Shown: piece after piece, positions 7,418 to 60,687 of the stretch
Layout of the letters: every line of letters begins with the position of its first letter
How positions within the stretch are numbered: position 1 is the first letter of the stretch
Program-made: the position numbers and the translations under genes
Notes under the pieces: model-generated
Told to the model about the DNA's origin: nothing
What the model saw: only the letters and a program-made list of their open reading frames with translations
The model's database searches: none
DNA from: Umbilicaria muhlenbergii
Lineage: Eukaryota > Ascomycota > Lecanoromycetes > Umbilicariales > Umbilicariaceae
Assembly: GCA_000611775.1 (NCBI GenBank)
Contig: KK106984.1
Coordinates: forward strand, 1,894,580-1,958,579
DNA length: 64,000 nt
Direction of reading: 5' to 3'

Positions 7418-9027
7418 CCTGGCTTGAGAGAGTTACTCCGTTCGCTTTCGATAGTGCTTGAAGATTATTAAACTGTGATATGTGGAGCTGCAAGCAGGTT
7501 CCTGGCGAACTGAAAGGGGGGCTATTTAAGTATTAGAGTCTTCGTAATAAGATCCAAGACCGGCTTGGGAGAAAACAAGCTTAAGGAGCGATAAATGCCA
7601 TCGAGGGCCTCGGTGAAGCTGAGCAGCAGAGATCAAAGCAATGTAACTCTGAAGCTCGATCCAGATGTTTATGGTTCATGTCGCGGCTGTTTATCGATAA
7701 CAACCAACACCTTTCCAGGTGGATCATAGTATCTCCGTTCACCGGCAACATCCACCTTATCCGAACGACCTCCCTGAACCATTCTCCCCACCAGACCCCA
7801 GAGAGAGACAGTGACATGAGCCACGGGAATCATTATACCCTCTGGGAGCACATGCGCAGCTTGCCAACTTGCAGGAAGAGAAACAAGTCTCTGTGCGGAT
7901 AGCTCCGCGCGCAATAAGCCCGCATTCGGCTTTGAGAAGAGCTACCATGAGATGGACGGCAAGCCCAGCAGTGTTGGACAGTTGGACAGGGAAATAACAA
8001 TGAAGAAACTGATCTTTGGGCAAAATATGAGGCTGTCGGGCTGTTGTGGAGAACCCGGTCACACCAACCTAGCCTGGCTCTTGCAGCACGTCTTGCATTG
8101 CCGTCGCTCCTCATGGGTGTAGGCTTCCACTAAACTGCAAAAATGGCCTCCCGTTTCTCTCTCGCCATTTCCTATAACAGGGGTTTTTGGGGTTGCTCGG
8201 ATGGTTCGATGGACGGTTGACTGGCGTATCTTACTGCTTTCGGCGGCAAAAGCCTGCTCTACTGTCTCCCAGTCGAGGGAGTATGGTGCTCTTGCTCTCT
8301 GTTATTATACGCTTGGGGGTTTCCTACTGTTTAAAGCTGTAGTTTACGTTAGGTCTGTTCTTCTCCCCTGCCGGTTTCGGCAGGCGCTGCGGGAGCAGTC
8401 ACGTACCTTCCACATTTATTCCCCTTGCTATTTCTTTCGCTTGCAGCTCGACTTTGTATAAATGCCAGCGTTGTCTGTGACATTATTTGACAGCATTCTT
8501 ACAACCTGTCCGGTATTCGATAGATATCCTTATACACTATTCGCACTCCGCTGCAGCCGTTATTGCGTTCTTCACCTATTTTCTGATCTGCCATACTATC
8601 GATTGTCATCGGCTATCCTTGGAGAGGCCTGCTGCAGCTTTCCAGAGCCGCCCAGTTTTTGTGATCTTTTGACGCCGCTCGAAGGCAACCTCTCCACTGC
8701 GTTAGGAGTCAGCTGCATTCGCAAAGCCGAAAGATCGAAGACATCCCTTGCTCTAGCTATCGGTATATAACAGCATACCACGGGTCTGTGTCGATTGGGC
8801 CTCGCCGAAGTCCTCGCGGTCGCTGCTATCAGGGTAGGTGGGACATTATATCCGCAAGCTCTCAACCCAGATATTCCAGCCACGGTGTAAGCAGACTCTC
8901 CGGGCACTAGGAAGGCTTTGAAGACGTTTCACACGTCGTTGCACCGTGCGATAGACGTAGTTGTGGGAGGATTAGCTTGACCTGTGTGGTGCCGAGAGAA
9001 ATCCGGGCAACGACCGATAGGGGTAAA
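7418..9027. other. Intergenic, no convincing gene
   Basis: This 1.6-kb stretch lies between the divergent F-box/LRR gene and the exon-array gene. A pyrimidine-rich plus-strand stretch (8201-8770) reads open except for one stop, but its translation resembles no protein and composition alone could explain it. It may hold the promoter and leader of the gene at 9028. Confidence 0.4.
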
Positions 9028-10655
9028 ATGGCTAGTCAACATGAAAACAAATCCGCAACTTCACCCCCCTCGACTCCCTTACCATCACCCACCTCCACTT
9101 TCGTATCATCACACACAACCGCGGACGGACCTTTGTCAGATACAGCTGAGCATAGCCAAAGTATCCCTTCTGGCGCTCCTTTCCAACAGGTATTACAAAG
9201 CTCTCCAGAAACCATGATTTCGGTCAGAGCCAGAGGAACACACCCGCTACAAACAAGCAGTTCAGCCGAGCTCGCAGAATCCACAACCAAATCTCCATCT
9301 TCCCTTCGAAGACCTAAGGCGCCATCAGTTGCTAAGGAAGATCAAGGTCCTCCAGCAAGATCTCAAGTTGCTCTTGACAGGGTACGAGATCTCCCGCCAA
9401 GAGACGACATACCAGATCTCTAACTGATTTTCCACAGCCACCACATCAAGATACGCAAGCGTCACCTACTCGGAGATCTACAACTGTATCCCCTGGAAAA
9501 CATGTATGATATCTCTGTCGAACAAGAGAAAGCCGGACCACTAACTACTCTGTAATAGATCCTACCCCATGACGCAGGTGACTCGCTTCCTGAGACGTAT
9601 CCAGCTGTTACTCCGAACACTAAGGTATACATCCTCTGCATCAAATCAACCAGCTGGACCTTGCATTAATATAACATAGAGTCTACCCCAAGAAACACGT
9701 GCACCAAGTGATTCAGGATCTCCCTCTGTAGTTTCGAATACCAAGGTAGGTTAGATCTAAAGAGAATCACTCAGCACGATCTCTAACGAGTCTATTGTAG
9801 CCTGACCCTCGAGCGAGCAGTGTGCTACGTAGCCAGTCACTAAGATCTTTACACTCCGTAAGCTCCCTTCGAGTCCCGACACGACTCAGTAGTCTCAGAA
9901 GCGATACTTCTGTTTCACCCGATTCTTTCAATACCGATCTTCGACCGCAAGCCTCCGTGCCAGCTTTCCTAGGAAGACATCGTACTTCACCAAACACGAA
10001 AGGCGTACAACGCACCGTCTCTTTAGGAAGTATTGCAGAACTTCACAGCACCGCGCAACAGTCGTACCGGAACCGAACCTTCAGCCTTCCGATCGCCAAG
10101 CAGCGTCGTTTGAGTTCACCAGCAGTGCGCCGACGCTTCGAATCAGACTCCGATTTAATTGCGCGCCGAAACGCCTCTATTACGAGCGTAGAGGAGTTGA
10201 AAGAGCTACTTTCAACCAACGAAGAAGTCCTGTTCGTGGATATCGCCCAGAAACCCGACCTCGATATACTCTTTCCAGCCCGCCGCCTCCCAATACCTCT
10301 AATCTACCGGCAAAGTAGTCCGGCGGCCCCCACGACCGCTTCTAAACAGGCGGTATTCGTCCCTCTCTTCGTCAACAAGCAACTCCGCCCACGGAGTACT
10401 TCAAGTATGCGGCCAAGCGCCGATTACTGGCCGAGGGACGAGGAGGGGTTCCCGCAGCCAAGCGGCCACTCCGAGTCGATGGAGGACCTCCTCGGAAGGG
10501 AGGAGGAGGAGGAGGAGGAGGAGGAAGAGGAGCAGGAGCGTGCTGTTGTGGCTGTGGGGCCCGCCCAGGGCGCGCCGCAACCCCGGGGGTTGCGTAGGTG
10601 GTTGCGCAAGGTCAAGGACCTGGCGAGGCGTGCTCTGGGCATGCGCAGGGAGTAA
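9028..10655 (+). CDS. Unrecognised protein encoded by a periodic exon array
   Basis: Five exons, 9028..9381, 9438..9503, 9559..9624, 9680..9745 and 9801..10655, 468 aa. All four introns are phase 0. Exons 2, 3 and 4 are each exactly 66 nt (22 codons) and introns 2, 3 and 4 are each exactly 55 nt, so exon starts repeat every 121 bp. Exons 3 and 4 share LP near their start and NTK at their end. The protein is Ser/Thr/Pro-rich at the N-terminus and Arg/Ser-rich in the middle (SLRSLHSVSSLRVP). It has an acidic Glu run encoded by a GAG repeat near 10499-10533 and a basic, possibly amphipathic tail (LRRWLRKVKDLARRALGM). No signal peptide or domain is recognised. Because the small exons are symmetric, any could be skipped without a frameshift. 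Function unknown; the splice model is strong. Confidence 0.75.
9316..9800 (+). repeat. Tandem exon-intron units, 121-bp period
   Basis: Diverged units start at 9438, 9559 and 9680, and a fourth boundary falls at 9801. The 3' end of exon 1 plus intron 1 (9316-9437) looks like a further unit, one base longer. The introns still share sequence: intron 1 and intron 4 both carry GATCTCTAAC shortly before the acceptor. This supports tandem duplication of an exon together with its intron. Confidence 0.7.
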
Positions 10656-11966: not shown

Positions 11967-12263
11967 TCCGCTCACACTCTACTCCTCACTCAGTCCACTC
12001 AAGAACACCATAGAAGTTCCAGCTAAGGTCGATTCATAGCTATATGAGATAAAGGCTGCCCGAAAAAGCCCACACCACCTAGCCAACAAAGCGCGTGAAA
12101 AGAATACCGCAGCCACAGAGCCATGTCCAGCCAAAAGCTCTCCCGTGACAAATCCGAGACAGACGGATATAGAAATAAGCAAACGCCAGCAGCAGTATGC
12201 CCGCCCCGCCATCCAAGCCAAAGCGCCATTGCCGTTGCCGATGCCGTTGCCATTACCCTCCCT

Positions 12264-12316
12264 TCCCATCCCTTTCCATCCCATCCCTTTCCATCCCATC
12301 CCTTTCCATCCCATCC
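12264..12316. repeat. 15-bp minisatellite
   Basis: Three near-identical copies of CCCTTTCCATCCCAT, with partial copies at the edges, about 180 bp beyond the 3' end of spt20. Confidence 0.85.
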
Positions 12317-12488
12317 ATATCCACATCCCTCCCCTCCTCCATCCGACCCCTCCACTCCAACCAAACCCTAACCCTTCCATTTACACATCACTCCCCACCC
12401 CCCCCCAATCCACAGCTTGTCTCTTCAAACATCCAAACCCCAATCCCCAGGCCCGCCGCCCCGCTCCCCTATTACTATCCCAACCACC

Positions 12489-59481: not shown

Positions 59482-60687
59482 CGCAGTAATCAACGCGTCC
59501 AAGGACTTCTACGCCTCCTCACCCCGCCTCGATCACAATGAAAGCAGTATCTAACTAAGGGACCGCAATTCTCCTGGATCTCCGTATCGGACCGAGAAAT
59601 GATAGTGAGGCTGACACCCTTCCGCTTGCTAACAACCTATGCCAGCGGCAATACTGGTACAGCTTGACTTTCAACGCCGATCAGGGCAGGATGCCTTATT
59701 GGACGGAGGGAAGTTACCGAAAGAAAGAACTGAATGTGGAGGGGACCCTCGGGGGTGCCTATGCTTACTTCTCATCTGTCATACGAACCACGATTAATGT
59801 CCAACTGCCTTGATGGTATACAGTGATCGAGATCTTCGGAAGGGCACCTGACAGAGTGGACATGGATCATGTCAGGTGGCGTTCTTCATGTGTCTTAAAG
59901 ATACCCCGGACCTCAATACCTACAACGCAGACATGAATGCAGAGGGAAGCTGCTTGACATTAATGCTATATATTATGCTTGGTGTCATTCAACAAGTGTC
60001 CCATCTACCAGGCTATAACACGCCAACCCCATACCGGCACATGCAACGCAATCGCCCTTTGAAACTGACAAACCTCCGGCATCATGATGCCCACATTATC
60101 CAACTCGCATACCACTCATTCGCCGCCTCCTCCATCACATGAACAGTTTGCTGATGCTTAGTGGCAGCATTCATCGGCTTATAGTTCAAGCCCGCGAGAT
60201 CCGGACCGAGTGCCGAAGTATAATGCTTGCCCTACCAAGGATAATGCGCACCCCGTCAAAGGCGTGCGCGGACGCTGAATCATAGCCTTGATTCATCTTG
60301 GTCCGAAGTTGGTACCTTGGTGCGTGCGTGGTGTGACTGACGAAGATGTGTTCATCACTCACTTGGCCTGGGAAGAAAGACGGTGCAGGGACGGCGAGGA
60401 GGAGTGGCCCTCGAAGTGTTGAAGCGTTCAATGTAACACTCTCTCCGCTTGTTCATCTACAACTACAATTGACGTTCTCCATCTCTTTTCTATCTGTCAC
60501 AACTCATCTACTAATCACTCTAGCTTGACGCACAAGTTTTGTTGAGCTCACTTTGTCATTGAACGCTCCTGAAGACCAGAAAAGGTGAGCAACCAGTCTC
60601 GCCAAGCTTTACTCCTTCTAACATCTCTCAGCTCAAAGCTCGAACATTGATCGCTCAATCAAGATACAAGCTCATCAATCTACCACG
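59482..60687. other. Intergenic
   Basis: 1.2 kb with no recognisable gene. Possible leader of the first zinc-type F-box copy from about 60550. Confidence 0.4.

Follow-up and report, generated by a model that had tools for sequence, protein, structure and literature searches.

An array of three diverged 66-nt exons and equally spaced introns in a predicted gene of Umbilicaria muhlenbergii: a probable old tandem duplication

Introduction

How a single gene comes to hold successive exons, and successive introns, of exactly the same length is the question raised by a predicted five-exon gene of Umbilicaria muhlenbergii (9028-10655, plus strand, 468 amino acids). The gene lies on contig 4 of a 7-contig genome sequence totaling 34,788,950 bases, within a stretch of 64,000 nucleotides (GCA_000611775.1, KK106984.1, 1,894,580 to 1,958,579) that we call the window and whose numbering is used throughout. 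Comparison of its parts with one another and with controls indicates that the predicted gene contains three related exons and four related introns, and we consider it highly probable that they descend from a coding repeat, with an intron in it, that was duplicated in tandem long ago within a Ser/Pro-rich linker and is constitutively spliced. The parts of the gene are as follows.

9028..9381, plus strand: exon 1, 118 codons, Ser/Thr/Pro-rich, start ATG at 9028
9382..9437, plus strand: intron 1, 56 nt, phase 0, homologous to introns 2-4
9438..9503, plus strand: exon 2, repeat unit exon, 66 nt, 22 amino acids
9504..9558, plus strand: intron 2, 55 nt, phase 0
9559..9624, plus strand: exon 3, repeat unit exon, 66 nt, 22 amino acids, nearest relative exon 4
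9625..9679, plus strand: intron 3, 55 nt, phase 0, poorest splice signals of the four, branch TTAAT
9680..9745, plus strand: exon 4, repeat unit exon, 66 nt, 22 amino acids
9746..9800, plus strand: intron 4, 55 nt, phase 0
9801..10655, plus strand: exon 5, stop codon included, open frame of 284 codons, first 66 nt possibly a decayed copy of the unit exon

All four introns are GT-AG and of phase 0, and the three units of 66 + 55 nt show no difference in length, intron 1 being one base longer.

Results

The units are related in both their exons and their introns

The original prediction, made from the letters of the window, gave 66 nt for exons 2-4, 55 nt for introns 2-4, phase 0 throughout and exon starts at 9438, 9559, 9680 and 9801, and our coordinates agree with these. 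It attributed the array to tandem duplication of an exon plus intron in which length was kept while sequence strongly diverged, a proposal that is strongly supported by the controls described here. When the segment 9438-9800 was compared with itself, 124/242 positions (51%) matched at lag 121 and 63/121 at lag 242; across the background of lags 20-299 the mean identity was 0.259, and the next best lag reached 104/291 (0.357).

Between the exons, nucleotide identity was 30/66 for exons 2 and 3, 31/66 for exons 2 and 4, and 37/66 for exons 3 and 4. Shuffling of codons gave p values of 0.0012 and 0.0033 for the first two pairs, and none of 20,000 shuffles reached the third; at the peptide level, the same kind of test was significant for exons 3 and 4 alone (p 0.0003, as compared with 0.12 for exons 2 and 3 and 0.08 for exons 2 and 4). 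For the remaining comparisons, the background came from our own gene finder, which predicted 79 other genes in a sample of 264 kb (less than 1% of the genome); these genes contain 150 internal exons and 218 introns. In-frame windows of these genes equaled the three exon pairs, in the same order, in 2, 2 and 0 of 3,246 comparisons. Among the introns, the similarity of introns 1 and 2 (33/55) and of introns 2 and 4 (32/55) was reached by none of 984 background pairs of similar-length introns, and that of the remaining four pairs by 6, 10, 10 and 39 of them. When each member was compared with the rest of its group, exons 2, 3 and 4 were each closer to the other two than were all 3,202 control coding windows, and introns 1-4 were each closer to the other three than were all 53 control introns.

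The sharing of a short sequence by introns 1 and 4 had been put forward as a trace of the same event. The sequence GATCTCTAAC is indeed present in both (9415-9424 and 9778-9787), but it is weak evidence of duplication, because CTAAC is the branch-site consensus and because introns 1 and 4 are the least alike of the six intron pairs (26/55). Short GT-AG introns with CTAAC branch sites, taken together with the Spt20-like gene nearby, point to a filamentous ascomycete.

The reading frame and splice signals of the predicted gene

The gene finder took its codon usage from the window plus 200 kb of the same genome (264 kb in total), its splice-site weights were set by hand from the fungal consensus, and its intron length prior was hand-set with a center of 54 nt. 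Run blind to the coordinates above, it returned the three 66-nt exons and, all in phase 0, introns of 56, 55, 55 and 55 nt. An in-frame stop is present in every one of the four introns, and retention of any single intron would bring the first stop after 131, 141, 176 or 186 residues. Ranked by splice signals among predicted introns, introns 1, 2 and 4 fall at percentiles 84, 78 and 97, and intron 3 at percentile 18. The start ATG at 9028 has an in-frame stop upstream at 8908, and a further in-frame ATG lies at 9214. Codon usage, scored per codon in frame 0, marks exon 5 (0.105, with the other two frames negative) and exon 3 (0.17) as coding; exon 1 is neutral (0.006).

Several results weigh against a coding repeat of this structure. 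Codon usage fails to mark exon 2 (−0.077, with the other frames higher at 0.084 and 0.053) or exon 4 (−0.007). The gene finder also split exon 1 by an intron of 48 nt and exon 5, close to its start, by one of 54 nt; we did not adopt this version, which has six introns and a protein of 434 amino acids. For the 468-residue protein, no Pfam hit passed the cut-off of its family (best E 0.63), and no PDB chain was matched. To these must be added the exact retention of length, which is taken up below. On the supporting side, searches of the genome with the DNA of the gene and with the protein of exon 5 returned only the locus itself, a kind of search that is insensitive to copies of about 50% identity; the exon 5 protein had no relatives in viral and prokaryotic DNA collections, as expected of such collections.

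One could also envision that the gene model is wrong, the array being spliced in some other way or being a tandem repeat that is noncoding or pseudogenic and has decayed. The neutral codon usage of exons 1, 2 and 4, the failure to find a homologue and the differing call over the rest of the gene all fit this alternative, as does the finding that diverged tandem periodicity is not rare, with 35 places in the 264 kb, the array among them, above the lag threshold used here. Against it stand the high-ranking splice signals of introns 1, 2 and 4, the frame that stays open through all five exons and for 284 codons in the last, and the bias of the substitutions by frame 0 (see below). We regard a wrong gene model as unlikely. 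Many of the 35 places appeared AT-rich or simple when judged by eye from their first bases, and the unusual feature of the array is that its period coincides exactly with an exon plus an intron.

Other diverged or strong tandem repeats were seen in the same genome. The segment 60965-61359 of the window carries a diverged repeat with a period of 87 nt (29 residues) and a lag identity of 0.529; it sits in an open frame from near 60622 that is F-box-like by eye, and its peptides contain CKRC/YDTVVP-like segments. On other contigs, strong tandem repeats occur in L003 (2569-5051, period of about 111-112 nt) and L010 (5211-6141, period of 157 nt), and these look AT-rich and noncoding by eye.

Divergence of the copies and retention of length

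Transversions exceeded transitions in all six comparisons (exon and intron of each pair of units), for example between introns 2 and 4 (18 versus 5). We could thus reject duplicates mutated by repeat-induced point mutation (RIP), since the differences are transversion-rich and not mostly C-to-T or G-to-A. Triplets in which the first two bases are equal and the third differs numbered 14/66 in frame 0, as compared with 6/63 and 4/63 in frames 1 and 2, an excess that translation with some constraint on the protein would be expected to leave. Amino-acid identity showed a small excess in the same direction (16/66 in frame 0 versus 12/63 and 11/63 in the other frames). Some constraint at the protein level is visible, yet the peptide itself is little fixed.

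Exons and introns have diverged about equally, and a Jukes-Cantor tree of the three units has about 1.17 substitutions per site, 142 in total. With assumed indel-to-substitution ratios of 0.05-0.15, complete identity of length would have a probability of at most 8e-4; for the intron interiors alone, the same ratios give 0.18 to 0.006. Under these ratios, the length identity is beyond what neutral decay predicts, so that a constraint or a mode of divergence must be missing from the account, and length retention is the one feature that simple neutral decay explains poorly. Selection for the reading frame accounts for the exon lengths, and a favored intron size may partly cover those of the introns; predicted introns elsewhere vary widely in length. 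A bolder hypothesis is that the array is length-locked and serves as a ruler, with the 66-nt exons and 55-nt introns held exact while their sequence drifts to about 50% identity. Such a ruler could work in either of two modes: the length of a linker would be set in 22-residue steps by exon skipping or change of copy number, or the introns would be kept at a size that the spliceosome requires around very short exons. We think that this is quite improbable.

Alternative splicing, inserted introns and coincidence

The original prediction further held that, the exons being symmetric, a change of copy number or the skipping of exons would yield proteins differing in 22-residue steps. All eight include/skip combinations of exons 2-4 are in frame and encode 402 to 468 amino acids, so that isoforms in such steps are possible. 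One alternative to constitutive splicing is a functional isoform ladder, in which the exons are skipped in varying number to yield linkers of graded length, and the weak splice signals of intron 3 could allow alternative splicing. However, exon skipping was rare in the one filamentous fungus for which we have numbers, Fusarium graminearum (4 genes, as compared with 211 that showed intron retention; PMC3577648), and the three exon peptides have diverged to 16/66 identical pairwise positions. A functional ladder therefore appears quite unlikely.

Another scenario is that the 66-nt coding repeat is older and was at first intronless, and that an introner-like element inserted introns at the same place in each of its copies. 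The array shares with the introner-like elements known in Dothideomycetes (PMC4457414) the presence of related introns within a fungal genome, and introns 2-4 are slightly more alike (28-32/55) than the exons (30-37/66). Introner-like elements, though, are near-identical introns in unrelated genes, and no such copies were found here, either by probe or by profile. A 176-nt probe with introns 2 and 3 matched only itself in the genome at E values up to 10; it missed the neighboring units as well and, therefore, speaks only against near-identical copies. A profile of the introns run over the 264 kb recovered its four members and one partial match (E 0.17). Exon and intron, moreover, lie in one register and have diverged to about the same degree. 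We consider insertion of introns very improbable.

Equal lengths are uncommon in the background: none of 102 consecutive pairs of internal exons in the 79 other predicted genes were of equal length (as called by the gene finder, with its hand-set intron length prior centered on 54 nt), and 66 nt was the length of 1/150 internal exons. The last possibility, that unrelated exons and introns came to be of equal length by coincidence, has next to no probability, for although 55 nt is an ordinary intron length here (5/218 introns), the relatedness of exons and introns goes beyond all controls and already refutes it, and the joint coincidence of lengths alone would have a chance of about 8e-8 under the background lengths (a post hoc computation).

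Possible further copies in exons 1 and 5

The head of exon 5 (9801-9866) may be a further, more decayed copy of the unit exon, judging by its resemblance to exons 2-4, which 41 of 3,202 control windows matched as closely. The array had originally been drawn from 9316; that the last 66 nt of exon 1 (9316-9381) form another unit is not confirmed, as 172 of the 3,202 control windows were as close. Also near the end of exon 1, the segment 9291-9367 can be aligned with the tail of exon 4 followed by intron 4 (score 44.5), as if a copy of the intron had become coding. The alignment is borderline: one plain shuffle in 300 did as well, as did two control tiles in 734 and, depending on the scoring, 2 to 67 of 1,000 dinucleotide shuffles. 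We do not claim it as a further unit; the 121-nt profile gave it an E of 0.35, and its offset is not a multiple of 121. A protein-profile scan for units elsewhere in exons 1 and 5 produced a top score that 17.7% of 3,000 shuffles reached.

Repeats of other kinds occur in the same two exons, and hence at several places in the gene: exon 1 holds a 24-nt repeat of 2.3 copies (9061-9116), and exon 5 a GGA run (10499-10538) that encodes poly-Glu. A neighboring gene is Spt20-like (Pfam Spt20_SEP, E 8e-16). Its predicted protein is itself rich in glutamine runs, and a short TTTCCATCCC-type repeat (12237-12483) adjoins its 3′ end.

Discussion

We propose that the ancestral block, about 121 bp long, lay where the gene is rich in Ser/Thr/Pro and comprised a single phase-0 intron together with the 66 bp of coding sequence next to it. 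Copying of this block head to tail, presumably by replication slippage or unequal crossing over, would have produced the four related introns and the three related internal exons. As translation of the predicted gene shows, each extra copy added 22 residues and left the frame intact, since the unit exon has the same intron phase on either side and a length divisible by three. Later point substitutions brought the three units to about 50% identity with no net change of length. The introns are most likely removed constitutively, in which case the array would contribute 66 residues of linker. The linker is probably disordered, as judged by composition (Ser 15%, Pro 11%, Arg 10% and Thr 7% in the 468-residue protein) and hydropathy. 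In two of the three units, a proline-directed site with a lysine after it (SPGK and TPNTK) lies close to the end. Such a site is a kinase consensus, and these may form a phosphorylation motif, though a weak one, because the protein has 13 SP/TP sites overall.

The array belongs to a known phenomenon, as the precedents show. The direct fungal precedent is CNN00420 of Cryptococcus neoformans (Sharpton et al. 2008, PMC2395259), in which repeats of about 107 nt contain a full intron and exon ends, the number of repeats differs among strains, introns 3-5 are identical and expressed sequence tags (ESTs) support the structure. Both are single-copy fungal genes with an intron-bearing repeat and related introns inside one gene. 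Unlike the identical introns 3-5 and strain-variable repeats of CNN00420, the copies described here are about 50% identical, of equal length and known from one genome sequence. A larger precedent is found in Tetrahymena, where thousands of leucine-rich repeat genes have exons of exactly 90 bp set in arrays, all in the same phase (PMC6564038). There, too, successive exons share one exact length and one intron phase, which is ascribed to duplication of exon units. The Tetrahymena arrays differ in being of phase 2 and encoding leucine-rich repeats, with introns apparently not of one length, whereas the present case is one gene with phase-0 introns of uniform length and no known domain. In the 264 kb sampled, none of the 79 other predicted genes had two equal neighboring internal exons.

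In Drosophila, exon-intron structure has likewise been gained through direct intragenic duplication (PMC2891723). The cases described there are single duplications, or duplications of exons only that create an intron from AGGT or from a proto-splice site, whereas an existing intron was here apparently copied several times. We also considered the effector-type repeat genes, such as SP7 of arbuscular mycorrhizal fungi (PMC11333574), and set them aside; the only common feature in the text available is an intron beside repeats, and no signal peptide was seen by eye in the present protein. A search of the literature on intron gain, on the duplication of exons and on exon arrays in fungi or of equal length, which covered few subscription papers, returned no report of this gene among the matches listed. 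What sets the array apart from the known cases is its age and its exact retention of length.

The array is, then, an attractive but ordinary event in the history of a gene structure, by a mode of exon and intron gain that is already known. It offers a single-gene record of exons and introns multiplied jointly by block duplication, in which half of the sequence has decayed and the lengths have not. If orthologues bear the array out, it would provide a test of how fast introns drift in length relative to sequence, and of whether fungal arrays of symmetric exons give rise to isoforms.
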